A DNA stretch of 64,000 nucleotides from Nitrospirota bacterium (GTDB lineage: Bacteria; Nitrospirota; Nitrospiria; SBBL01; JAADHI01), in NCBI GenBank assembly GCA_029261195.1, contig JAJDBU010000044.1, positions 1 through 64,000 of the forward strand, read 5' to 3'. Of the stretch, positions 3,832-41,991 are shown one piece after another. Within the stretch, counting starts at the first letter, position 1; each line of letters starts with the position of its first letter. The position numbers and the translations under genes were made by a program. The notes below the pieces were generated by a model. That model did no database searches. It was given only the letters and a program-made list of their open reading frames with translations, and had not been told where the DNA came from.

Positions 3832-6800
3832 ATGGATCGACTCTCTCTTCAGAGTGTCAAAATCTCTCCACCTGTGCTTCCCGGCATCTTCAAGCGGACC
3901 CGGCTGTATAAAATACTGAACCAGTCCCTCAAGCGGCCGGTACTCTGGGTTTCGGGCCTGCCCGGCGCTGGAAAAACCACTCTGGCCGCCAGTTATATTG
4001 CATCGAAAAAAGTGTCTTCCCTGTGGTACCAGTTGGACCCGGGGGACGAAGATGCCGCCACCTTTTTCCATTATCTGAGTCTGGCCGCAAAGAAAGCGAC
4101 GCCGCGCAAACGCAGCCCCCTCCCCCGCTTGGCGCCGGAACATCTGCACAACCTTCAGGTTTTCGCACGACGCTATTTCCAGCACCTCTTCAGGCGCTTA
4201 ACGCCCCCCTTTATCCTCGTCTTCGACAACTATCAGGAAATACCGGTCGCTTCCCAATTTCACGAACTGATCCGGATCGGGCTTGAGCAGATTCCGCCCG
4301 GAGGAAATGCCATTTTTCTAAGCCGCAGCGAGCCGCCCCCGCCCTTGCTCCGTCTTCGGCTGAACGGGGCCATGCGCACCCTGAAATCGGACGCGCTCCG
4401 TCTGACTGCCGAAGAAGCCACCGGCATCGCCCGGCTACGGGAGGGATGGGCATCCCGTCCCGATGCGATTCGCCGTCTGCACAAGGCCTCAGAGGGTTGG
4501 GCCGCCGCACTGGTTTTGATGCTGGAATATGATCCATCGGATCATGTCGAACACGCATCGGATGATATCGAGCGCGCCCCGCAGGAGATGGCACAGGAAA
4601 CATTTTTCAGCTATTTTGCCGGGGAAATCTTCGATCGACTCGATCCGGTGACACAGACCTTTCTTCTGAAAACAGCCTTCCTGCCGAACATCACCCTGGA
4701 GACGGCACGGCGGCTGACCGGTCTCCCCGAGGCAGGCCGGATTCTCGCAACAATGAACCGGAGACTTGTCTTCACGGATAAAAAATTACCGGGCAGTGCG
4801 TTGTACCAATATCACCCCCTTTTCCGTGAATTTCTTCTCTGGCGGGGGGAAGAAACCTTCCGCCCGGAACAACGCAGAGAGCTCAATCGTCAGGCCGCCG
4901 ATCTCCTTGCTGAAAAAGGACAGGTTGAAGAGGCCGTCGATCTCTACCAAAAATCGCAATCCTGGCCGGAACTGGCCCGATTGATCTGTGAGGAAGCCCC
5001 TTCCTTATTGAAACAAGGACGCTTCCGTACCCTCAAAGAATGGCTGGAGCGACTCCCCGAAGCGATGCGCCTGGCCGAGCCCTGGCTCCTTTTCTGGACC
5101 GGAACCTGTCGTCTTCCCTTTAAGCCGATTGAAAGCCATGCCCATTTTACCCAGTCTTTTCAGGCTTTCAAAAAAACGGAGGACCAAGTCGGCATGTTGC
5201 TGGCTGCATCCAGCGCAATGGAAGCGATTTTGACCGAGTGGGGCGATTTCAAACCATTGGATCGATGGATCGCACTCTTTGATAGCTTGCCGAAAGGATC
5301 GACAGCAAACCTTCCTGACAATGTCGGCGCGCGTGTGGCATTTGCGATGTTCGCCGCCCTGATGTTCCGTCAACCGGACCACCCGGAGATGCGGTACTGG
5401 GCCAATCGGGTATTGCAATGCATGCGGTCCGACATTGATGTTGCGCAACGGATCTTAATCGGGGGATATCTTGCTCACTACCGGTTCTGGGTGGGGGATG
5501 TTCAGGCAGCGGGCCTGATCCTCGATCAGGTCAGGCAACTCGCCAGAACAGTTGAACTCCCTCCCCTGATCTTCGCAATATGGAAAATGCAGGAGGCGGT
5601 TTATTATTGGCATACCGCCGCATTCGAGACCTGCCTGAAAACCGTTGCCGAGGGCTTAACAGGAAGTGAAGAAAGTGGCATCCATCTGCTTGATTCGTGG
5701 CTGCTGGCGCAGGCGGTCTATGCTTCCCTCTCCCGGGGTGACCTGGCCGGGGCTGCAAGTTTTCTCGATCAAATGAAACCCGTCCTGGATGGGAATCGGC
5801 ACCTCGATATCAGCCATTATCACTATCTCTCCAGTTGGTATCACTTGCTTTCCGATCACCTGGAGCGCGCCTTACAACATGCCCAAATCGCCCTTCAAAT
5901 AAATAAGGAAGTGGTCGGAACACCCGTACCGGAAGGACTGGTCAGCATCATGCTGGCACAGATATGCCACGAATCGGGAGAAGGGGAAAAAGCGGTACCA
6001 CTCCTTGTCCGGGCCCGGGAGATTGCCCTTGCCATGAGAAGTGATGTTTTATTGATGTTGGCTGATTTGACTCAGGCTTACTTTTCTCTTGAGCTGGATC
6101 AGGAAGACCAGGCACTCGTATCCCTGAAAAGAGGCTTGGCACTGGCAAAAAAACAGAGTGTTGTCAATATGGCAGGGTGGCGGCCGTCCATGATGACACG
6201 GCTCTGTATCAAGGCACTCGAAGTCGGCATTGAAGTGGCCTACGTGCAATCCCTGATTTGCAAGCGATCCCTCCTGCCGCAAACACTCCCCTTAAATATA
6301 AAAAACTGGCCCTGGACCATAAAGATTTTCACCCTTGGGCGTTTTTCCATCGTGATGGACGGAAAGCCGCATCGCCTTGGCGGGAAAACACAACACAAGC
6401 CGGTCGCCCTCTTGAAGATGCTGATTGCCTTTGGGGGCCGTTCAGTCAGCCGGGATCACCTGGCCGATCTTCTGTGGCCGGAGTCGGAGGCGGATCAGTC
6501 GGAGCGGGCCTTCGACACCACCCTTCACCGTCTCCGCCGCCTCCTGATGGTGGAACAAGCGATTCAAATGAAAGACCGGAAGCTGACGCTCGATATCCGG
6601 CATTGCTGGGTTGATGCCTGGGCACTTGAACGGCTGCTTGGACAATGCGGTGCATTGTTGGCGCAAGGGGATGCTGCAAAAGAAGAAATCTCATGCCTGT
6701 CGGAAAGCATCCTGCGGCTCTACAGAGGAAGCTTTCTGGCAGACGAGGCCGAGTGGGCAGTGGCTTCCAGGGAACGCTTAAGAAGCCGCTTCCTGCGCAA

Positions 6801-30601: not shown

Positions 30602-31537
30602 TTATTGCTCAGAATCGTCTAAATAGAATTTACTTCGTTCTTCCCAACTGTGGGGGACAAGTAAATCTCCAGGTGAATTGTGGTCCTGTTTCTTCACCTT
30701 GGGTGGTACCAAGTGACCATCTTTTAGCCAGGTTTGTAAGCGGTAGCTCGTCTGAAGGTCATGTAAGGGAATACGGATTTCTTTGGAATTAAAGCTAAAA
30801 CCCATCTCTATCGTTTCATTGGGTTTAATGGTCACCGTTTGAGCCTGAACCTCCATATTGGGATGCCATGCAATCAAATGGTAGGTGCCCGGTGGTATAT
30901 TTGCAATTTCATATTCACCATTTTCATTCGTCACATCAAAATACGGGTTTCCGACAGCAAGTCCCCAAGACTGCATATAATCATGCACACCGCATTGTGT
31001 TCTAAAAATATAGTGCCCTGGTCGAAATTCAACGTCTTCTTGAATATTCGCCTTTTCCGGAACCGGTTTATTAAACATTTGAAAGGTATACTTGCTGTCT
31101 AGGGTGTAAGCCTGAATATCATGGAATATCGGGTCATTATTGGCGATTGTAACAGGGTGATTATTTCGAACCGGGGTCACAAAGGGCCGAATCTGGCAAT
31201 CCTCCAACCAGATAATCGGTTTATGATTAAAAGGTTTCCCTTTTTCTACCCCGACAAGGGAAATCACCACATCTTGAAATCCGCCATCTTCAGCTTTCAT
31301 AAATTCGTGTAAATATCGATTGCCATTACCATCCGAAATGCTCCGACAGAATTCAATATTTGGAGAAAAAATCAGGTGGTAAACCCGTGCGGGGGGAACT
31401 TGTCCTTCCAGGTAAATCTTTCCTTTTAGATTCCCGCCATTCTCCACCCGTTCCACTTCATAGCCCCATCCTTGTGGTAAATTGACCCCCAAAGATACAA
31501 ACAAAACCAGTAAAGACAGACTTATTTTTCTAATCAC
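30602..31537 (-). CDS. Secreted cupredoxin-like protein with a carboxypeptidase-regulatory domain (paralogue B)
   Basis: A 311-residue exported protein (signal peptide ending PQGWGYE). After a beta-rich start there is a cupredoxin-like domain: His in NNDPIFHDIQAY and the C-terminal loop TQCGVHDYMQSWG (Cys, His, Met), which fits a type 1 copper site. Then a carboxypeptidase-regulatory-like beta-sandwich (VTNENGEYEIANIPPGTYHL, AWHPNMEVQ). It shares this layout with the protein at 31794 (about one third identical by eye), so they are paralogues. Good Shine-Dalgarno GAAGGAGAAGC. Together with the oxidase gene these form a minus-strand locus; likely role: electron transfer to or from the oxidase. 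Confidence 0.83.
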   Translation of the reverse strand: MIRKISLSLLVLFVSLGVNLPQGWGYEVERVENGGNLKGKIYLEGQVPPARVYHLIFSPNIEFCRSISDGNGNRYLHEFMKAEDGGFQDVVISLVGVEKGKPFNHKPIIWLEDCQIRPFVTPVRNNHPVTIANNDPIFHDIQAYTLDSKYTFQMFNKPVPEKANIQEDVEFRPGHYIFRTQCGVHDYMQSWGLAVGNPYFDVTNENGEYEIANIPPGTYHLIAWHPNMEVQAQTVTIKPNETIEMGFSFNSKEIRIPLHDLQTSYRLQTWLKDGHLVPPKVKKQDHNSPGDLLVPHSWEERSKFYLDDSEQ

Positions 31538-31793: not shown

Positions 31794-32759
31794 TTAGTCG
31801 ATAATAATCCGCTCTTCCCCTTCATGAAGTTTATGATCTTCAGGTGTGGCCGTATCCAGACGAAATCTGTCCTGAGACTCGTATGTCGGCCGTCTCACTT
31901 CATTCCCGTCAAATGCAAAGTTCAGCCGGGACGTGCTCTTCGCCTTCACCGTAACGGTTTTCTTAAAGATCTTGAAGTGAGGATGCCAGATGCTAACTTC
32001 ATATGTTCCTGGCGGAATACCATCAATAGTGTAAGTACCGTCCTTCGCGGTTTTTGCATAGTAGGGATTTTCCACAGCAAAACCCCAACTCTGCATGAAT
32101 TCATGCATGCCACAGATCATCTGGGAAATCCGTCGGCCTCGCGTAAAGTGAAGCACACCTCCCCGGGGTTCGGCTGAGATCGGCAGGGGGGTATTCAGGA
32201 TAATATTTCCCTTTTCATTCTGATACACCTGGATATTGTGAACCACCGGGTCCCGGTTGATCATGTTCATCCGTTGGTTGTTATGGATGATGGCCACATT
32301 GGGATGTTCGTGGTGGAGTTGCCCTTCTTCATCAATTGAAAACTGCTCTTCATCAGCAACATCAGCTGGGTGAAACATGCAATCGACTGCGACAAATTCA
32401 GCCACGGTCGGGAGGTAAGGTTTACCTTTTTCGATTTTTTGAATCGAGACGACTGCCTCCCAAATGCCTCGATTGCCGTCCTTGCTGACGATAAATTCTT
32501 TCAGACGGACATTCCCCTGCCCATCTGATATTTTTTTACAAAAAGGACCAAAGGGATACTGAATCAATACAAAAACCCGTGGCTCCGGTTTGGATCCTTC
32601 CATACTGATTCTACCGCTAATCGTACCGCCATTACTTACGTCGATCTCTTCGTAAGCATTGGCCATAGGAAGTCGAATCATTCCGACAAGGGCCAGTATC
32701 AGGACACCCCAAAGACCTTTCATTAAATATTTTTTCCCGGCCATGCAATATATTTTCAT
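31794..32759 (-). CDS. Secreted cupredoxin-like protein with a carboxypeptidase-regulatory domain (paralogue A)
   Basis: About 321 residues from the ATG at 32759 (GGGGG eight bases upstream). Signal peptide with core LWGVLILALVGMI, cleavage near PMANAY. The cupredoxin-like part has His in NRDPVVHNIQVY and the loop ICGMHEFMQSWG, giving a His-Cys-His-Met set like paralogue B. The C-terminal regulatory domain reads AKDGTYTIDGIPPGTYEVSI and IWHPHFKIFK. A His/Glu-rich insertion (GQLHHEHPN) near residue 170 is specific to this copy. It lies 112 bp after the oxidase reading frame, with a stem-loop between, and is probably a partner in metal oxidation. Confidence 0.83.
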   Translation of the reverse strand: MKIYCMAGKKYLMKGLWGVLILALVGMIRLPMANAYEEIDVSNGGTISGRISMEGSKPEPRVFVLIQYPFGPFCKKISDGQGNVRLKEFIVSKDGNRGIWEAVVSIQKIEKGKPYLPTVAEFVAVDCMFHPADVADEEQFSIDEEGQLHHEHPNVAIIHNNQRMNMINRDPVVHNIQVYQNEKGNIILNTPLPISAEPRGGVLHFTRGRRISQMICGMHEFMQSWGFAVENPYYAKTAKDGTYTIDGIPPGTYEVSIWHPHFKIFKKTVTVKAKSTSRLNFAFDGNEVRRPTYESQDRFRLDTATPEDHKLHEGEERIIID

Positions 32760-32800
32760 TGTCATTTCCCCCATATCAAACAACTTCCCCATGAACGCAA

Positions 32801-32840
32801 ATTGGGGCAAGAGGCCAGTTTTCACTCCCCTTGCCCCAAT
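32801..32840 (-). other. Stem-loop after the multicopper oxidase gene
   Basis: ATTGGGGCAAG (32801-32811) and CTTGCCCCAAT (32830-32840) form a perfect 11-bp stem. On the minus strand only AATTTG follows, so it may be a weak terminator or attenuator that sets the ratio of oxidase to cupredoxin transcripts. Confidence 0.55.
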
Positions 32841-32871
32841 CTGTTAACGACTGACTACGCTATCTCTGTGC

Positions 32872-33078
32872 TTATTTCTCAAGCATCGAGACAGGTCCGG
32901 GCGCTTCTTCAAGACCCGATAATACCTCAGGGGTCCCCTCTTGCGGGACATCTGCTGTTCTGCTGCCAACACCCCCGCCCGAATTCAGCGGAAGGATGGA
33001 CTGGTTACCAGGCGGCAGGACTTTAAAATAGCCCCACTGACCCGCAGCCGCATAAGGCAAGCGATGGTTCTGCCAGAG
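32872..33078 (-). pseudogene. C-terminal tail of the multicopper oxidase beyond an in-frame TAA
   Basis: Directly after the TAA at 33079-33081 the same frame stays open for 68 codons to a TAA at 32872-32874. It reads LWQNHRLPYAAAGQWGYFKV and LPPGNQSILPLNSGGG. That is the usual end of large MofA-type oxidases, where 'Y-L-x-x-N-H-R-x-P-Y' with 'G-x-W-G-Y-F' closes the last cupredoxin domain. Replacing the TAA by a Tyr codon (TAT/TAC) restores a continuous protein. Confidence 0.8.
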
Positions 33079-36000
33079 TTAGATACCCGGCAAGGTGGTC
33101 GGACCACCCGCAGATTTGACCATGACATCCAGGTTTTCAGACGATCCGAACTCCTCAGAGGAGAACATGTCTGCACCTTTCATGTTGATCTTCAGCGGCC
33201 ATTCGTGACCTTCGAGAGAGAACACCTGATTCTGCTCGTTGAAGGCGCCGAAGACGTGGATCCGAACAGGATCACCCGCATGGGCACTGATCGTCGGTGT
33301 GACAGGGTCACCCGCTCCCGCGACACAAGGCTGGAACATGGTGCCGAGTTCACAGCCGTTCTCCTCGCGATACATCCAAGGCTCGATCCGGTAGTTTACA
33401 CCGGCCAAACCTGCAATCTGCTGGATGTAAGGCATGAAGGCTGTTCCGATGATGTTGTCCTCATCCTGGAAATAGAGGGCAAAATCACGGTAGTCGGAAC
33501 GTCCCTGACTCAGAGGAGAGCTTCTGTCGAGAATGACATCAGCCGCCCAGGCATTACCCATGGAAATATCTGCGCCAGTAACCGGGTCGCGATATTTCGC
33601 GCCACGAGGTCCGACGATGATACCACCAAAGAGTCCGTCCCGAACACTGTTCATGAAGTTACCCCAATCCCACACAATCGCTGAGAACTCACCGTATTCC
33701 GGCGGCGCATAGAAGGTGTAGGTTTTGCTCTTACCTGGGGCAACCGTCTGGTCTCCCTTGTTGTTTCCGACGTTCACACCCTGTGAATCGTGCGGATCAA
33801 AGGCCAGCATGTCAGCCGAGAAGGATGCCTTAAGCCCCTTCAGGTTGTTGCGGAGGTTAACCTTGATACAGTCTCCGACATTGACACGCAGGGTTAAAGG
33901 ATGAGGCAAAGCGCCTGAAGCCACCTTCGCCATGTCACCTTCCAGCATGAAGATTTTGCCTTCGGGGTTCGAGATCTGAAGTTTCCGATCAAAATCCACC
34001 TCAATGACATCTGGCGCATTCGGATTGTACTTCATGGCATGGTCAGTCGCCACGACGTTGAAACGCTTGACCGGCGCATCTGCCGGGCAGACGTTCTTTG
34101 CAGACTTCGGAATTACGCTGTGTCCCGGAAGCTTCTGAAGATCAGAAGTTTCTTCATCAAGGACACGAAGAATTCCCCAGCTGCCTTCGCCCAGTTTGGA
34201 AGGACGTCCGTCATAATGGAGGTAATCACCTGCCATCTGCATCGGTCCACCCGCCTTCGTGACGAAGTCGTAGCGTTCTGCAATCCCGATATGATGTGCA
34301 TTCCGGAGATCACTATGCTTCGCATAACGCTCTGTACGGAAGGCATGTCCCGCGACGTGCCAGACATGGGATTCGTTCATCATGGTATGAAGCATCCGGA
34401 AGACAACTGTATCACCCAGATAGGAACGAATCAGAGGCGTACCCGGATCTTTCCCGTGTGCCGTCGAAGAGAAGACGAGGGAAGGATCAGGATTATTCTT
34501 CAGGCGTTTCGCAATGGATTCCGCCTTGAAGAAGAAACCGCCACCCGTGGTGTGTGTACCACCATTCAGATGCTTGACCGCAACATAGTCGAGATCATAA
34601 GGCATCTGGAAAAACAGCACCTGACCGGCATCAATCGCAGCCCGTTTGGTCTGTCCCGGAGGATTCCCGTCTGTGACAACCTGCGCGGTATGCGGCACAG
34701 TGTCATGTAGGAACTGGGCAATCTCACGGAAACTCCCGCTGTAGCCGTAACCAACTGGCTCCATGGAGTGAATATCCGCAATAGGGCCGGAACGGATTTC
34801 GTCGCCCGTAATCGGATCATGATAGGTTGAACCCACCGGCTCAACAATCATGGCACCCACCGCGCCGTGAGGCCAGGTGGTTCCACCCAAGGCATGGTCA
34901 TGCCAGAAGACGGTTCCGACATCGGCATCCGCCCAAAGACGATAACGCACCCACTCGGTGGAGATGATTTCACCTGTCTTGTGAGCATGTTTCAAAGGCT
35001 CACTGAAAGTCAGGGTGTCCACACCGCTTGCGGCATCATGCTCGATGTTCCGGATCCAACGGACCTCAGAAGTTTCCACCTGATGCATACCGAGCATGAT
35101 GTCGGTATTCACATGGAAAGGCACTGCGCCTTTACCCATTTTGAGCTTGATCGTAATGGCACCGATGACCGTGTCTTCGGTTTGAAGCGCATTCATCGGT
35201 GCAGGAAGTCCACGTTTCTCTTCCTTGCCCAGCATGGTGAAAGGACGCATCGACTGATCATAGGAAAATCCGCTGATCACGCCGTCTGAGGCCTGGTTGT
35301 CGAACTGAATGAAATGAGGATGAATGTTGATCTTGGACATCTGGAAGTTAGTCGGGTTGTTATCCACCCACTCACTCTTCAAGATGACGTCGAGGCAGTC
35401 ATACACATTCAAACGATAAACAAGAGGACGGGCTAGATCGGGATTCGCCCGAACTTTAGCAACGTCTTCAAGCAGGACATAGATCAAGCCGTCCTGATCG
35501 ACCACTCTGCTTTCGCCACCGATTGCGTCGTTCATGGTAATCGGGGTTTGAATAAAGTGGATGGTGTATTGTTTACGACCGGCACCCTCTGGACAAAGGC
35601 TCCAACGACCCTGTTCTCCCGGACGCGCCGGTGAGGTAGTCTCTTCACCCGGTGCACCGATGCCACCTGGATCGGTACTTGGCGTACCGTGGTTTTTTTC
35701 CATGTGGATCGGCTCTAACCACGGCGCGCCGCCGTGATGACGTGCAAAAGGTACACGTTTGCCGAAATGAGGTTTGAAGTGCGGCCAGGAAATTTTTCCT
35801 GTCTTTTTCTCAAACAGGATGGCGGGACGTTTGCCCGGCATGGGGGATTTATATTTCGGATTCGGGAACTGACCCGTATCTTCTCTTTCACCCATAGCCG
35901 TCAGGCCGTCCCAGCTCCAATCCCAGACACTGGCGTCGTAGGCCAAAATCTGACCTTTTTCGTCAGAGGTATGACCCGGTTCACCCATCGGAGGCACCAT

Positions 36001-37806
36001 CATGGTGACCCAGTCTTTGATGGAGATATCCGGAATCGGTTTCGACCAGTCTGATTTGTCTTTTGTGATGTTCCATTTCTTGTCAAACCAGTCCATGGTT
36101 TTACCGACCAGTTTGTCAGAGGTCACGCCTGGCTCCATCCGGCCTTTACGATCCGGCAACTCCTGAAGCGGCACCATGGCATCGGTGCTGACAAAAGGAT
36201 AGTTGCCCGACTGGATGGTGTTATACACACGCCAGTAGCCCCACATGCCCGCAACATAGTGATGGGCCACATGGCAGTGGAAGAGAAAGTCTCCAGCCAA
36301 CTGCTGGCAGAGACCTGATCCGCACTCCGTCTGAAGGTCAAGCACTTCAGAAGGTCCGATCACTTCGACGTCAACACGGTCAGAGACGGTCCGGATAACG
36401 GGAAACTTCACCGGGTTATCCCAGGCTGCGGTCAGGAGCTCTTCGCCCTTGCCGTCGGCCTTCGGTGAACGCAACCAGCGGATGGATCCGCCGTGAGGGT
36501 GATGACTGTGGAAGACCTCGCCGCCGCCGTGGACCAAGCGGAACTTGGCAGGATCACCCATGTAGGAACGCGGAATCGTCGTCGGCACATCTCCGAAGGT
36601 ATAGGAGCTGTAAGCCATCGACTCATCTTCAAAATGGAAGTACTTCTCTTGCATGGCAAGGTTGTTGATACCGAAGGGCTCTGAGCGGAAGTTCATGGCT
36701 CGGGCAGAGGGACGATAGGCATCGGTGTTCGGATCACGCTGAGGGATCATCTCACCATCCCGGTTCAGCGGACGGAAGGACTCATCGCCGACTTCGTGAT
36801 ACACAAGGACAAACTCACGGAAGTCCTTGGAAAGTGGATTGATCTTGTCGTCATAGGCGATCATCATCGTCCAACCACTCTGGGCTTCTTCTCCGGAGAT
36901 CGGATTCAGATATGTTGCGCCCATGGGCTCAACAATGAACGAGCCGATTAAGCCCAAGCTGCCTGGTTCACGACCGGCATGGCTGTGAAAGGATCTTGCG
37001 CCTTCCTGAGCATCCGGCTGGATGTACCATTCAAAAACCTGGCTTTTTCCAGGGCTGATATTGGAATCCGGGTTGACCGAAGTTGCCGGCTGACCCGTGG
37101 CCTTAATCACCTGTTGAGAACCATGAATGTGGAGACCGGCATCCTCCTCCTCTACTTCATTCCGTAAGGTAATGACCATGCAGTCACCCTGGTTACCACG
37201 GATGATCAGAGGGGAAATTAAATCGGTCTGATGACCGAGGCTGACTGCACCCGGATTGAATCCCGGGGCCGAGCGGGCCTCTGTGTTCAGACGCTCTTCT
37301 TCGCGAATGGCCGGGATATCTTTAGTGATGGCATACATGTATCCCGGGTGAAAATCCAACCACTGATTTAATGTGACTTCCACATTGATCGCAGTGATGT
37401 CGAGTTCTTTGATCGGCGCTCCGGCCGGGCAACCGCCGCCGGAAGTCACAGATTCTCCGGCCCCTGTCGGGCCTAAGAACCAGCTTCGGTCCATCTGCTG
37501 CATTGCGCTTAAATCACTAAACGGGCCGGTGTTACCCGACTTTTCGGCATGGCCTTTGATTTCGCTCATCAAGGTGTCCATCGCCGCGTCGACTTTCGCC
37601 GCACGTCCAGTTTGGCCTTCTCTTGTCTCTTCACGACGGATCTGGGCTTTTAATTTTGCCTTCCAGTCAGCGGAAGCCACCATGACAGCGTCCGGAGTTT
37701 CCGAATGCTGATGATCGTTACCACTGTCGGCTAAGGCCAGGCCCTGCGTCGAGAAGATCAACAAAAAAGCAAAGAAGACGCTCAAACTTCTGTTGGTCTT
37801 ATCCAT
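33079..37806 (-). CDS. Very large secreted multicopper oxidase, MofA-like (putative Mn(II) oxidase)
   Basis: 1575 residues to the first stop. Signal peptide ending QGLALADSG. All four canonical copper motifs lie in the first third: HIHG (about residue 225), HSH (about 274), HSHHPHGG as HxxHxH (about 435) and HCHVAHHYVAGM as HCHxxxHxxxxM (about 513), giving the trinuclear cluster and a type 1 site with axial Met. Further cupredoxin domains continue with partial motifs: HPHFIQF (about 832), HDHALGG (about 968), HVAGHAF (about 1150), DPHDSQG (about 1340). This size and multi-domain order match MofA-type oxidases, so Mn(II) or another metal is the likely substrate; a laccase-like role cannot be excluded. 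It ends at a TAA that interrupts the conserved C-terminus. A strong promoter lies at 37979-38007. Confidence 0.9.
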   Translation of the reverse strand: MDKTNRSLSVFFAFLLIFSTQGLALADSGNDHQHSETPDAVMVASADWKAKLKAQIRREETREGQTGRAAKVDAAMDTLMSEIKGHAEKSGNTGPFSDLSAMQQMDRSWFLGPTGAGESVTSGGGCPAGAPIKELDITAINVEVTLNQWLDFHPGYMYAITKDIPAIREEERLNTEARSAPGFNPGAVSLGHQTDLISPLIIRGNQGDCMVITLRNEVEEEDAGLHIHGSQQVIKATGQPATSVNPDSNISPGKSQVFEWYIQPDAQEGARSFHSHAGREPGSLGLIGSFIVEPMGATYLNPISGEEAQSGWTMMIAYDDKINPLSKDFREFVLVYHEVGDESFRPLNRDGEMIPQRDPNTDAYRPSARAMNFRSEPFGINNLAMQEKYFHFEDESMAYSSYTFGDVPTTIPRSYMGDPAKFRLVHGGGEVFHSHHPHGGSIRWLRSPKADGKGEELLTAAWDNPVKFPVIRTVSDRVDVEVIGPSEVLDLQTECGSGLCQQLAGDFLFHCHVAHHYVAGMWGYWRVYNTIQSGNYPFVSTDAMVPLQELPDRKGRMEPGVTSDKLVGKTMDWFDKKWNITKDKSDWSKPIPDISIKDWVTMMVPPMGEPGHTSDEKGQILAYDASVWDWSWDGLTAMGEREDTGQFPNPKYKSPMPGKRPAILFEKKTGKISWPHFKPHFGKRVPFARHHGGAPWLEPIHMEKNHGTPSTDPGGIGAPGEETTSPARPGEQGRWSLCPEGAGRKQYTIHFIQTPITMNDAIGGESRVVDQDGLIYVLLEDVAKVRANPDLARPLVYRLNVYDCLDVILKSEWVDNNPTNFQMSKINIHPHFIQFDNQASDGVISGFSYDQSMRPFTMLGKEEKRGLPAPMNALQTEDTVIGAITIKLKMGKGAVPFHVNTDIMLGMHQVETSEVRWIRNIEHDAASGVDTLTFSEPLKHAHKTGEIISTEWVRYRLWADADVGTVFWHDHALGGTTWPHGAVGAMIVEPVGSTYHDPITGDEIRSGPIADIHSMEPVGYGYSGSFREIAQFLHDTVPHTAQVVTDGNPPGQTKRAAIDAGQVLFFQMPYDLDYVAVKHLNGGTHTTGGGFFFKAESIAKRLKNNPDPSLVFSSTAHGKDPGTPLIRSYLGDTVVFRMLHTMMNESHVWHVAGHAFRTERYAKHSDLRNAHHIGIAERYDFVTKAGGPMQMAGDYLHYDGRPSKLGEGSWGILRVLDEETSDLQKLPGHSVIPKSAKNVCPADAPVKRFNVVATDHAMKYNPNAPDVIEVDFDRKLQISNPEGKIFMLEGDMAKVASGALPHPLTLRVNVGDCIKVNLRNNLKGLKASFSADMLAFDPHDSQGVNVGNNKGDQTVAPGKSKTYTFYAPPEYGEFSAIVWDWGNFMNSVRDGLFGGIIVGPRGAKYRDPVTGADISMGNAWAADVILDRSSPLSQGRSDYRDFALYFQDEDNIIGTAFMPYIQQIAGLAGVNYRIEPWMYREENGCELGTMFQPCVAGAGDPVTPTISAHAGDPVRIHVFGAFNEQNQVFSLEGHEWPLKINMKGADMFSSEEFGSSENLDVMVKSAGGPTTLPGI

Positions 37807-38195: not shown

Positions 38196-38591
38196 TTAAT
38201 TCGGAAAGCCGACCTTTATTTTCACGCGGCTTCTTACGACATCCGGCACATAAGGGGTCATAACATAGGAGTCTGCAACAATTTCGACCGTCTGCTTCGG
38301 TCCGACATATCGATTGGCCACATTCCGGGCAAGGGGCACGTCATCTTTATCCAATAAGTAATAGTAGGCAAAAACCCGCTTCCGAACATCCGAGTGATTT
38401 CGGACAGTGACCCTCCAGAAGTACTTTGTTTTGCCGATATAAGTCCACTCCGCATCCGCATACCACTCGTGATGGAGTATCTCGATTTGCCTGGCGTCCC
38501 GATCCGCGGCCTCAACTTGAGCAGGCCCACCCGCAACTGAAGCAAAGCAGACAAAAAAAATAAAAAAAATCGAAGAAAAGAAGTACTTTAT
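38196..38591 (-). CDS. Small exported protein, apparent ATA start
   Basis: An open frame encoding 131 residues, missed by standard start rules. It begins with ATA-AAG-TAC (38591 down), a typical signal peptide (KYFFSSIFFIFFVCFASVAG), then a beta-rich domain (VEAADRDARQIEIL, EWYADAEWTYIGKTKYFWRV, VFAYYYLLDKDDVPLARNVA, VEIVADSYVMTPYV, VRSRVKIKVGFPN). A very strong GGAGGAGG lies just upstream, so only the ATG is lacking; the ATA overlaps the stop of the upstream gene (TAATAAAG). It may be a real non-ATG start or a base error. Third gene of a minus-strand operon with 38591-39187 and 39219-40235. Family not recognised. Confidence 0.7.
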   Translation of the reverse strand: MKYFFSSIFFIFFVCFASVAGGPAQVEAADRDARQIEILHHEWYADAEWTYIGKTKYFWRVTVRNHSDVRKRVFAYYYLLDKDDVPLARNVANRYVGPKQTVEIVADSYVMTPYVPDVVRSRVKIKVGFPN

Positions 38592-39187
38592 TATTTCTCC
38601 TCCTCCGCTTCAATCTTCCTTGTGCCCATACCAAAAGGAAGCTTGCGCTCTTTCAGGGTCGCTAAATTTCGATAGGTCGTCTGAAATTGTTCGTCCGACA
38701 GGGAAGGTTCGGACAGAGCAGTCAACTCATCCGGGGTAATCGCGATCCAGGTCAATTCGGCCAAATCAGTCGCCCCGACCCTTGCCCAATGATGCGGCAT
38801 AAATTCCTGCATGATCAAAAAATTGATACCCCGATTAAACTCCAGGGCCTTTTTAATCGCCAATCGCCCGTTTTCGGCTGAAATGCACCGGCCTATGCCA
38901 AGATTCATCGGCGGATCAAGGTTCATCGGGAAAAAAGTCAAACGCACCTTCAAGGACTCGTCAAGCGCAATCAAATCCTTTTTAATCGCCTTCTTTTTCT
39001 TTTTATATTTCTTTGCCAACTTCATATCAATCTTCGTTCTATTGCCTTTGCTGGCCTCCGCATTGCAGTCATAGCTTTCTTTTGCGACAAAGGCATGCGA
39101 CTCAGGCACGACAAAAACCAGTGCAAGCAGTACTGAGATTATTAGTGTACATTTCTTGTCAATTTTTTTATGAGGCGCCACAAACAT
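38591..39187 (-). CDS. Exported protein, unknown function
   Basis: A 198-residue protein from the ATG at 39187 (GGGAGAGA upstream). Signal peptide with core LIISVLLALVFVVPESHAF. The mature part has a highly basic run (KLAKKYKKKKKAIKKD), two Cys (YDCNAE, GRCISAEN) and a helical half (RLAIKKALEFNRGIN, WIAITPDELTALSE). I do not recognise it. Second gene of the TPR operon. Confidence 0.65.
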   Translation of the reverse strand: MFVAPHKKIDKKCTLIISVLLALVFVVPESHAFVAKESYDCNAEASKGNRTKIDMKLAKKYKKKKKAIKKDLIALDESLKVRLTFFPMNLDPPMNLGIGRCISAENGRLAIKKALEFNRGINFLIMQEFMPHHWARVGATDLAELTWIAITPDELTALSEPSLSDEQFQTTYRNLATLKERKLPFGMGTRKIEAEEEK

Positions 39188-39218
39188 TCCGTTCTCTCCC
39201 TGTATCATCATCACTCAT

Positions 39219-40235
39219 TTACTCATTGGTTTCATTAAAGGCCTCGACAGGTTTCAAACGGTCGAGATATTTCTTCGCTTCTTTATTGTCGGGCTGAAGT
39301 TCCACTACCCTTTCAAAACTTTCCCGAGTCATTTTTAATAGCGTATTTCTATCCTCCTGCGATTGCAGTTCTGCGGCCAGAAGGAACTGGGCTTCACCCA
39401 GGGCGAAGAACACTTCCGGGCTATCCAACCTCACAAGGGAAAGCGTCGCGTACTCTCGGACAGCATCAATATAAAACCCGGCACGAAAATAGAGATTGGC
39501 GAGACGCTCCCGCGCCGCCGATTCGTTGGGATCTTCATCGACCATCATTTTCCACTGGGCCGCCGCCTCTCCAAAATCGCCCCGTTTTTCATAGATCAAA
39601 CCAAGGTTATAACGGACTTCCAGCAAGGAGGTATCTTTGTCCAGCGCAATTTTGTAAGCCGCTTCTGCCTTGTCATGCTCACCCGATTCAAAATAGATAT
39701 TTCCAATGCCCAGCTTCACGATGGCGACATCAGGAACCAGCTCATCCGCTTTCAGATAGGCCTCCAGGGCTTCTTTATCTCGATTTAAGCGAGCAAGAAC
39801 GTGACCCAACAAGATATAAGGATGTTCATCATTCGGCGCAAAAATTGAGGCTTTTTTCGCCTCACGAACTGCGGGTTCAAGCTGTCTGCTCGCCATGTAA
39901 TAGCGCCCCAACCAATAATGAACCACCGAATTTTTCGGATTTTTCCGTACAAGACCTTTGTAAAAAGAGATCCCCTGTCTGCCCCGACGCGTTGCAATAT
40001 AGGTTTGATGGAGGTGGCGATGATACTTGTGGGTATTGATGCTTAATTTCACCGCTTGAGCAAATTCTACGATTGCATCGTCAAATTGTCGCTGCTTGTT
40101 CAGGGAGACTCCGACCTCAAAATAGGATTCTGCCGTCTCCTCTGCTGTCTCCGCTAACAGATAAGAGGGTAGAAGTACAAACGCCAAAGCGATCAGGAAA
40201 AAAGCCGTACTCGTTCTAATAAAAATCTGTTTCAT
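39219..40235 (-). CDS. Exported TPR protein
   Basis: About 338 residues: a signal peptide (FIRTSTAFFLIALAFVLLPSYLL) followed by seven or eight tetratricopeptide repeats, e.g. ESYFEVGVSLNKQRQFDDAI, VVHYWLGRYYMASRQLEPAV, HPYILLGHVLARLNRDKEAL, LEVRYNLGLIYEKRGDFGEA and AARERLANLYFRAGFYIDAV. It would be a periplasmic or outer-membrane scaffold. First gene of the operon; it reads divergently from hflX. Confidence 0.85.
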   Translation of the reverse strand: MKQIFIRTSTAFFLIALAFVLLPSYLLAETAEETAESYFEVGVSLNKQRQFDDAIVEFAQAVKLSINTHKYHRHLHQTYIATRRGRQGISFYKGLVRKNPKNSVVHYWLGRYYMASRQLEPAVREAKKASIFAPNDEHPYILLGHVLARLNRDKEALEAYLKADELVPDVAIVKLGIGNIYFESGEHDKAEAAYKIALDKDTSLLEVRYNLGLIYEKRGDFGEAAAQWKMMVDEDPNESAARERLANLYFRAGFYIDAVREYATLSLVRLDSPEVFFALGEAQFLLAAELQSQEDRNTLLKMTRESFERVVELQPDNKEAKKYLDRLKPVEAFNETNE

Positions 40236-40350
40236 CAAAGGCCTCATCTATGGGTAAATGACGGCGGCATATTAGCATCGGAAGGAGGGAAAAACAATCT
40301 CTGATCGATTTTCCCTCTCCCAAGGTGTTACTATTACCGGCACGAAAGGA

Positions 40351-41991
40351 GTGACGAATACGAGCATCTACGGATCAACACGCGGGCTGAAGCCCCTTCA
40401 AATCAAGCGTTTGGAGAAGATCGGCCATCGCAAAATCAAGACCGACCAGGTCATCCCCTTTGAACTTGCCCGCCTTCTCACTGCCCTGTCAAGCGAGATC
40501 AAGAAACAACTCGGCCTTCTTGTTGGAAGAGACGGTGTCATTTATGCCGTCATCATCGGGGATCAACGGCAAGTTGTTATTCCCGATCTGGCCGAGCTCC
40601 GTTCCGCGAAACGCCACCTGCGAGGCATCCGACTGATCCACACCCACCTGAAAGACGAGGCCCTCAGCAAAGATGATTTAAGCGATTTGGCCCTGCTTCG
40701 GCTCGACATGATCGTCGCCATCGGTGTTCTGGCAGACGGTATGCCGGGACGGCTTTATCTCGCTCACCTTCTTCCCCCTAATCCACAAGGCGCACTCTAC
40801 GAAATTCACAAGCCGATTCAAATCCACCAGCTTCACCTTGAATGTCGCACCTTCCTTGCGGAGCTTGAAGCCGAGTTTGAACAGGGTCAGACAAAAAAAC
40901 TCAGTACTAAAAAACAAGACCGGGCCATTTTAATCAGCGCATCCCGACGGGCTCGTATTGATCAGGAAAATTCAATGGATGAGCTGGATGAACTCGTCCG
41001 GTCAGCAGGATTACTTCCTATTGACAGGGTCATCCAGAGACCCAAAGTCTATCATCCCAAATATCTGCTCGGGGAGGGCAAACTCAAAGAAGTCATTATG
41101 AAGGCGATTCAGCAAGAGGCCGACCTGCTCATCTTCGACCAGAACTTAAGTCCTCTCCAGGTCAAAACAATCGGAGAGGTCACGGAGATGAAAGTCCTTG
41201 ATCGCACCCAACTCATCCTTGACATCTTCGCGCAACGGGCACACAGCCGGGAAGCCAAAGTTCAGGTCGAACTCGCGCAACTTCGTTATCGTCTGCCCCG
41301 ACTTTCTGCCCGTTCCACCGCCCTTTCCCGCCTTACCGGCGGAATCGGGGGAAGAGGTCCGGGAGAAACCCGACTCGAAATCGACCGCCGCCGCGCACGC
41401 GACCGCATCGCCCGATTGGAAAGGGAACATCAAAGCCTTGCAGAGGCAAGAGTCAGACGGCGACGGAAACGGACGCAAAACCGTCTGCCTATTCTTTCGG
41501 TCGTCGGCTATACCAATGCGGGAAAATCAACCCTGCTGAACCAATTGACAAAAAGTGATGTCATGACGGAAGACTTGCTCTTTGCCACACTCGACACCAC
41601 TACACGACGACTCCGCTTCCCGAGGGAAAGAGAACTCATCCTCACAGATACCGTTGGATTCATTCAGTCCCTCCCCCCCGACTTGATGGCGGCTTTCCGC
41701 TCAACCCTTGACGAATTACGAGACGCCCAGCTCCTGATTCATCTCGTTGACATCAGTAGCGCCCGATTTGAACAGCAGATCGAAACCGTCAATAAAATAC
41801 TGGAAGAACTTGGGCTGTCGGAAACCCCCTGTCTGCTCGTCTTCAATAAAATCGACCGTGTTAATGTCGAAACCGTCATGATTTTGGAGGAACGCTATCA
41901 GGCCATTATGCTCTCAGCCTTGAATAAAAAGGGTCTCGGCCCGCTCTTAAGCGCTATTGAGCAAATATTATGGGAGGGAAAAGATTCTTAG
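40351..41991 (+). CDS. hflX: Ribosome-associated GTPase HflX
   Basis: A 546-residue HflX-type GTPase that binds the large ribosomal subunit and rescues stalled ribosomes. The N-terminal HflX domain holds STKKQDRAILISAS, DELVRSAG and the glycine-rich GGIGGRGPGETRLE; the G domain has GYTNAGKST (P-loop), DTVGF (G3) and NKID (G4). It carries the longer N-terminal extension (about 190 residues, GVIYAVIIG and IRLIHTHL) seen in many deep-branching bacteria. The annotated GTG at 40351 lies inside AAAGGAG, which makes it an unlikely start. An ACG at 40360, eight bases after that ribosome site and directly before SIYGSTRGLKP (the usual N-terminus), fits better. Confidence 0.93.
   Translation: MTNTSIYGSTRGLKPLQIKRLEKIGHRKIKTDQVIPFELARLLTALSSEIKKQLGLLVGRDGVIYAVIIGDQRQVVIPDLAELRSAKRHLRGIRLIHTHLKDEALSKDDLSDLALLRLDMIVAIGVLADGMPGRLYLAHLLPPNPQGALYEIHKPIQIHQLHLECRTFLAELEAEFEQGQTKKLSTKKQDRAILISASRRARIDQENSMDELDELVRSAGLLPIDRVIQRPKVYHPKYLLGEGKLKEVIMKAIQQEADLLIFDQNLSPLQVKTIGEVTEMKVLDRTQLILDIFAQRAHSREAKVQVELAQLRYRLPRLSARSTALSRLTGGIGGRGPGETRLEIDRRRARDRIARLEREHQSLAEARVRRRRKRTQNRLPILSVVGYTNAGKSTLLNQLTKSDVMTEDLLFATLDTTTRRLRFPRERELILTDTVGFIQSLPPDLMAAFRSTLDELRDAQLLIHLVDISSARFEQQIETVNKILEELGLSETPCLLVFNKIDRVNVETVMILEERYQAIMLSALNKKGLGPLLSAIEQILWEGKDS

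Follow-up and report, generated by a model that had tools for sequence, protein, structure and literature searches.

Does the in-frame TAA codon that ends the reading frame of a large multicopper oxidase gene reflect a recent nonsense mutation, a stop that is read through, or an error in the assembled sequence? These three options had been left side by side in a preliminary description of the window, i.e. the whole stretch of 64,000 nucleotides analysed here, which lies on contig C39 of a draft genome of 3.04 Mb. The relevant features are the following:

33079..37806, minus strand: MnxG-like multicopper oxidase copy A (locus I), open reading frame including the in-frame TAA, 1575 residues (reading frame, Pfam Cu-oxidase_3 match, match to MnxG 9bxa)
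33079..33081, minus strand: in-frame TAA, codon 1576, Tyr or Phe in homologues (letters and homologue alignment)
32872..33078, minus strand: conserved open tail of 68 codons (1577-1644) and ancestral TAA at 32872-32874 (alignment and structure model)
31794..32825, minus strand: CarboxypepD_reg-domain protein, downstream of oxidase A, 95% identical to the neighbour of copy B
30602..31537, minus strand: second CarboxypepD_reg/fn3_3-domain protein, 35% identical to the product of 31794..32825
38591..40247, minus strand: two genes, encoding an unknown protein of 207 residues and a TPR protein of 342 residues, which, taken together with 40351-41991, identify oxidase locus I among related genomes

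The in-frame stop and the tail behind it

The oxidase gene lies on the minus strand, which corrects the preliminary description; its "1.6-kDa" was also wrong and should have read about 1,600 residues. The plus-strand letters 33079-33081 are TTA, hence TAA on the minus strand, at codon 1576 of the reading frame starting at 37806. Beyond it, 68 codons follow with no stop and no frameshift, ending with GPVSMLEK and then a TAA (32874-32872). The same genome encodes on contig C29 a paralogue, copy B, with 93% protein identity to copy A, which is open to its end, carries TAC (Tyr) at the site and whose tail reads GIYLWQNHRLPYAAAGQWGYFKVLP...GPVSMLEK.

Oxidase relatives were found in 57 of the 58 related genomes surveyed, and none on viral contigs. 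Those that carry a name are MAGs of Nitrospirota, among them Ca. Manganitrophus sp. GAC4 (about 71-73% identical). In the loci that were read, the site is spanned by about 44 distinct homologous genes, which encode Tyr (TAT or TAC), or Phe in six cases, and none has a stop at the position of codon 1576. Since paralogue B and these genes share the tail or align through the site, the tail is genuine coding sequence. Other genes on both contigs are also trailed by long in-frame extensions; judged from the alignments, it is the conservation of the tail, not its length, that exceeds chance. Thus, the central claims of the preliminary description were borne out: a conserved C-terminus is interrupted, open conserved codons follow, and Tyr is the residue to be expected, as shown by TAC in paralogue B and Tyr or Phe in all close homologues. 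Alignment to homologues, which it had proposed as a check, gave the same answer, no homologue ending at the same stop and the tail being conserved in close relatives. It had called these homologues MofA-type; the best matches are to MnxG.

Homologues on three contigs (G032:C81, G026:C7 and G015:C562) had been flagged for in-frame stops; none has a stop within the conserved part of the gene, and on G015:C562 in-frame stops are still seen only among the last ten residues, so nonsense alleles do not recur here. Separately, the homologues in G026 (C7; L108 about 4711-4717) and G005 (C7; L111 about 1900) each fall into two frames, the breaks lying near residues 211-261 and 380; these breaks are possibly frameshifts or assembly errors in the relatives.

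Family assignment and structural effect

The protein encoded by copy A matches the Pfam family Cu-oxidase_3 (PF07732, E 5.6e-19) and thus has a cupredoxin-type Cu-oxidase domain. Against the NCBIfam MnxG equivalog NF041487 it scored 109.6 bits for a cut-off of 3100, and we therefore name it MnxG-like rather than MnxG. By sequence, MnxG 9bxa is its only strong solved relative (E 3.7e-84). As expected of a multicopper oxidase, it has HxxHxH, HCHxxxH and two HxH motifs, found as HSHHPHGG (433), HCHVAHH (510), HPHF (829) and WHDH (968). By comparison with MnxG, HSHHPH/HCH together with HPHF/WHDH form a predicted ligand set. All recognisable copper-ligand motifs are intact and lie within residues 226-971, upstream of the stop; the four just listed are kept in the homologues that cover them, save for HIH/HTH variants.

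An AlphaFold model was built for the C-terminal 405 residues, the TAA being read as Tyr for the purpose of modelling only. Its mean pLDDT was 66.5, with many core strands at 80-95, and the fold matched MnxG 9bxa, the nearest solved structure (E 2.0e-22, TMq 0.64), as well as ceruloplasmin and laccases. The stop falls at model residue 337, inside the penultimate strand (335-340), and truncation removes the last strand (352-358); the end of the model is disordered from residue 371. According to this model, the stop would leave the last, copper-free cupredoxin domain of copy A unfinished. At the extreme C-terminus, GPxSMLEK (window 32875-32898) is well conserved in close relatives, and the stretch just before it is variable and predicted to be disordered; the conserved end would fit a sorting or docking tag.

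Age of the stop and competing explanations

Simple Nei-Gojobori estimates between A and B gave a dS of 0.43 and a dN/dS of 0.11 for the body of the gene, and 0.28 and 0.14 for the tail. Parsimony against outgroups placed about one non-synonymous change on the A branch in the 68 codons of the tail, one more being ambiguous, for a neutral expectation of 21-33 (P below 1e-6 for about one). The tail of copy A is still under purifying selection; therefore, the stop is either very young or not real. If the divergence of A and B is counted from their last homogenisation, these estimates confine the stop, as a rough bound, to no more than the final 15-30% of A's branch. A sequence error has an age of zero and fits the constraint on the tail equally well. 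Copy A has, as a pseudogene does, an in-frame stop where homologues conserve a sense codon; it shows neither relaxed constraint (tail dN/dS 0.14) nor any other lesion, which are to be expected only for an old stop.

We rate as rather probable that the stop is real and arose very recently, by nonsense mutation of a conserved Tyr codon in one member of the pair of MnxG-like oxidase paralogues. Tyr codon 1576 would then have become TAA in copy A of this Nitrospirota bacterium related to Candidatus Manganitrophus, so that translation would terminate after residue 1575, within the last-but-one beta strand of the final cupredoxin domain. The truncated product would retain the copper-ligand motifs and have an incomplete final domain; it would probably be unstable or inactive, and the intact copy B on another contig may cover its function. 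The main rival is that the organism itself carries a Tyr codon at this site in an intact copy A, and that the assembled base is wrong through a sequencing or polishing error or a base from a minor strain. To this we give a substantial chance, short of even. A single base is out of line in an otherwise fully constrained tail, the assembly is a draft in 77 contigs, and the paralogue, at 90% DNA identity, complicates the placement of reads; the absence of any decay beyond one base counts against a real mutation, being equally the pattern of an error. However, those window genes that were checked by families included no split gene, and the contig runs unbroken past the site. Nearby bases distinguish A from B in sufficient number, and cross-mapped reads from B would yield TAC, not TAA. 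Bacterial genomes often contain single nonsense alleles. Because of this, because the loss can be tolerated when an intact duplicate is present and because no split gene appeared among those checked, we lean towards mutation, a preference over error that is a judgement from general knowledge. The overlapping ORFs at 9.9-16.5 kb were also considered as broken neighbours indicating a poor consensus and were discarded: their Pfam matches are unlike those of one gene split in two, and some ORFs have no match.

Readthrough, the third option of the preliminary description, largely falls away, leaving mutation and error. In this reading a near-cognate tRNA, tRNA-Tyr for example, would decode UAA 1576 often enough to give some full-length enzyme and hence two forms differing in their last strands. 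The persistence of purifying selection on the tail speaks for it, yet a recent origin of the stop explains this constraint without readthrough. The base after TAA is C and not U, and U at this position is described in PMC5289835 as reducing readthrough in E. coli; a term search of that paper returned no figures for UAAC, and the literature found on readthrough otherwise offered general background only. The C may possibly allow slight leakage and no more. Among the 43 RF00005 tRNA matches of the genome none has, according to ARAGORN, a stop-codon anticodon, so no suppressor tRNA was found; an ordinary tRNA-Tyr (GTA) is present. Furthermore, programmed readthrough or UAA reassignment would lead one to expect a stop shared by relatives and followed by a conserved extension, and no relative has a stop at the site. 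RNA folding around the stop is unremarkable (z = -0.08), no better than in shuffles and not that of a stimulatory structure. Together, these negative results make programmed readthrough unlikely, and there is no indication of a new decoding mechanism. We regard functional readthrough as very improbable, and slightly more so the combination of a real UAA read at a useful rate with short and long oxidase forms differing in the last cupredoxin strands. Least probable of all, to the point of being barely worth entertaining, is an adaptive truncation, with a functional end at codon 1575 and a tail that no longer belongs to the protein: the copper motifs are indeed all upstream of the stop, but the sequence and frame of the tail are conserved in all close relatives and in the paralogue, and the tail completes a beta domain. 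As an ancestral state, such an end is already contradicted.

Should the recent nonsense mutation prove genuine, one of the two large oxidases reported in all Ca. Manganitrophaceae (PMC9040806) is being lost from this population, which would then serve as a natural knockout to learn if the two are both required; no general rule would be altered.

Two oxidase loci and likeness to known systems

Many relatives carry the oxidase twice per genome, as on the Ca. Manganitrophus GAC4 chromosome. The flank of copy A (40351-41991, encoding a GTPase that resembles HflX in sequence, then 39219, 38591, the oxidase and the CarboxypepD_reg genes) recurs around the oxidase in L036, L044, L058, L063 and L065, and the genes flanking copy B recur around the oxidase in other relatives; some copies at contig ends were assigned to a locus from one flank only. 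The second CarboxypepD_reg/fn3_3 gene (30602-31537) also follows the oxidase in several relatives, and the two proteins of this kind (30602-31537, 31794-32825) are possible partners of the enzyme.

Between the two loci of the window genome (window 31794-37806 against L003 5914-11879), DNA similarity is 89.6% for the oxidase and 90.8% for the next gene, and stops at about the gene edges. In the protein tree the two copies pair by genome in G000, G002, G003 and G006 (SH-aLRT 99-100), with the exception of the locus I copy of G001 (L044), which groups outside. Two old syntenic loci whose copies cluster by genome point, as far as sequences can tell, to recurrent gene conversion; our search of the literature on gene conversion in such oxidases found no relevant paper. 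Identity between A and B is also uneven, about 96% in DNA over residues 401-600 and only 74% over residues 1101-1200 (window 34207-34506), as conversion tracts that differ in age would produce. The likeness of two old loci within a genome suggests selection or frequent exchange matching both copies, and helps to account for the breaks that short-read assembly leaves inside the gene in these genomes. In G003 and G006, contig ends truncate the two copies at one and the same residue. This two-locus pattern is more interesting than the stop itself.

Oxidase A shares several cupredoxin domains with MnxG, the Mn-oxidising multicopper oxidase of Bacillus sp. PL-12 (PDB 9bxa), and the HCH...GMWG motif of the latter can be aligned with it. 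Unlike MnxG, it comes from a Nitrospirota and is about 400 residues longer than the 1227-residue 9bxa chain; it is a putative Mn oxidase. Compared with ordinary bacterial pseudogenes carrying a single nonsense mutation, copy A is alike in having one stop, a frame otherwise kept and an intact duplicate, but it shows no further decay, so that its loss of function is extremely recent or not real. All Candidatus Manganitrophaceae encode "two novel MCOs" (PMC9040806), likewise two oxidase copies per genome, and the A and B type oxidases are probably the genes of these two. The window genome differs from them in that one copy has an in-frame stop, which no relative examined has at this site.
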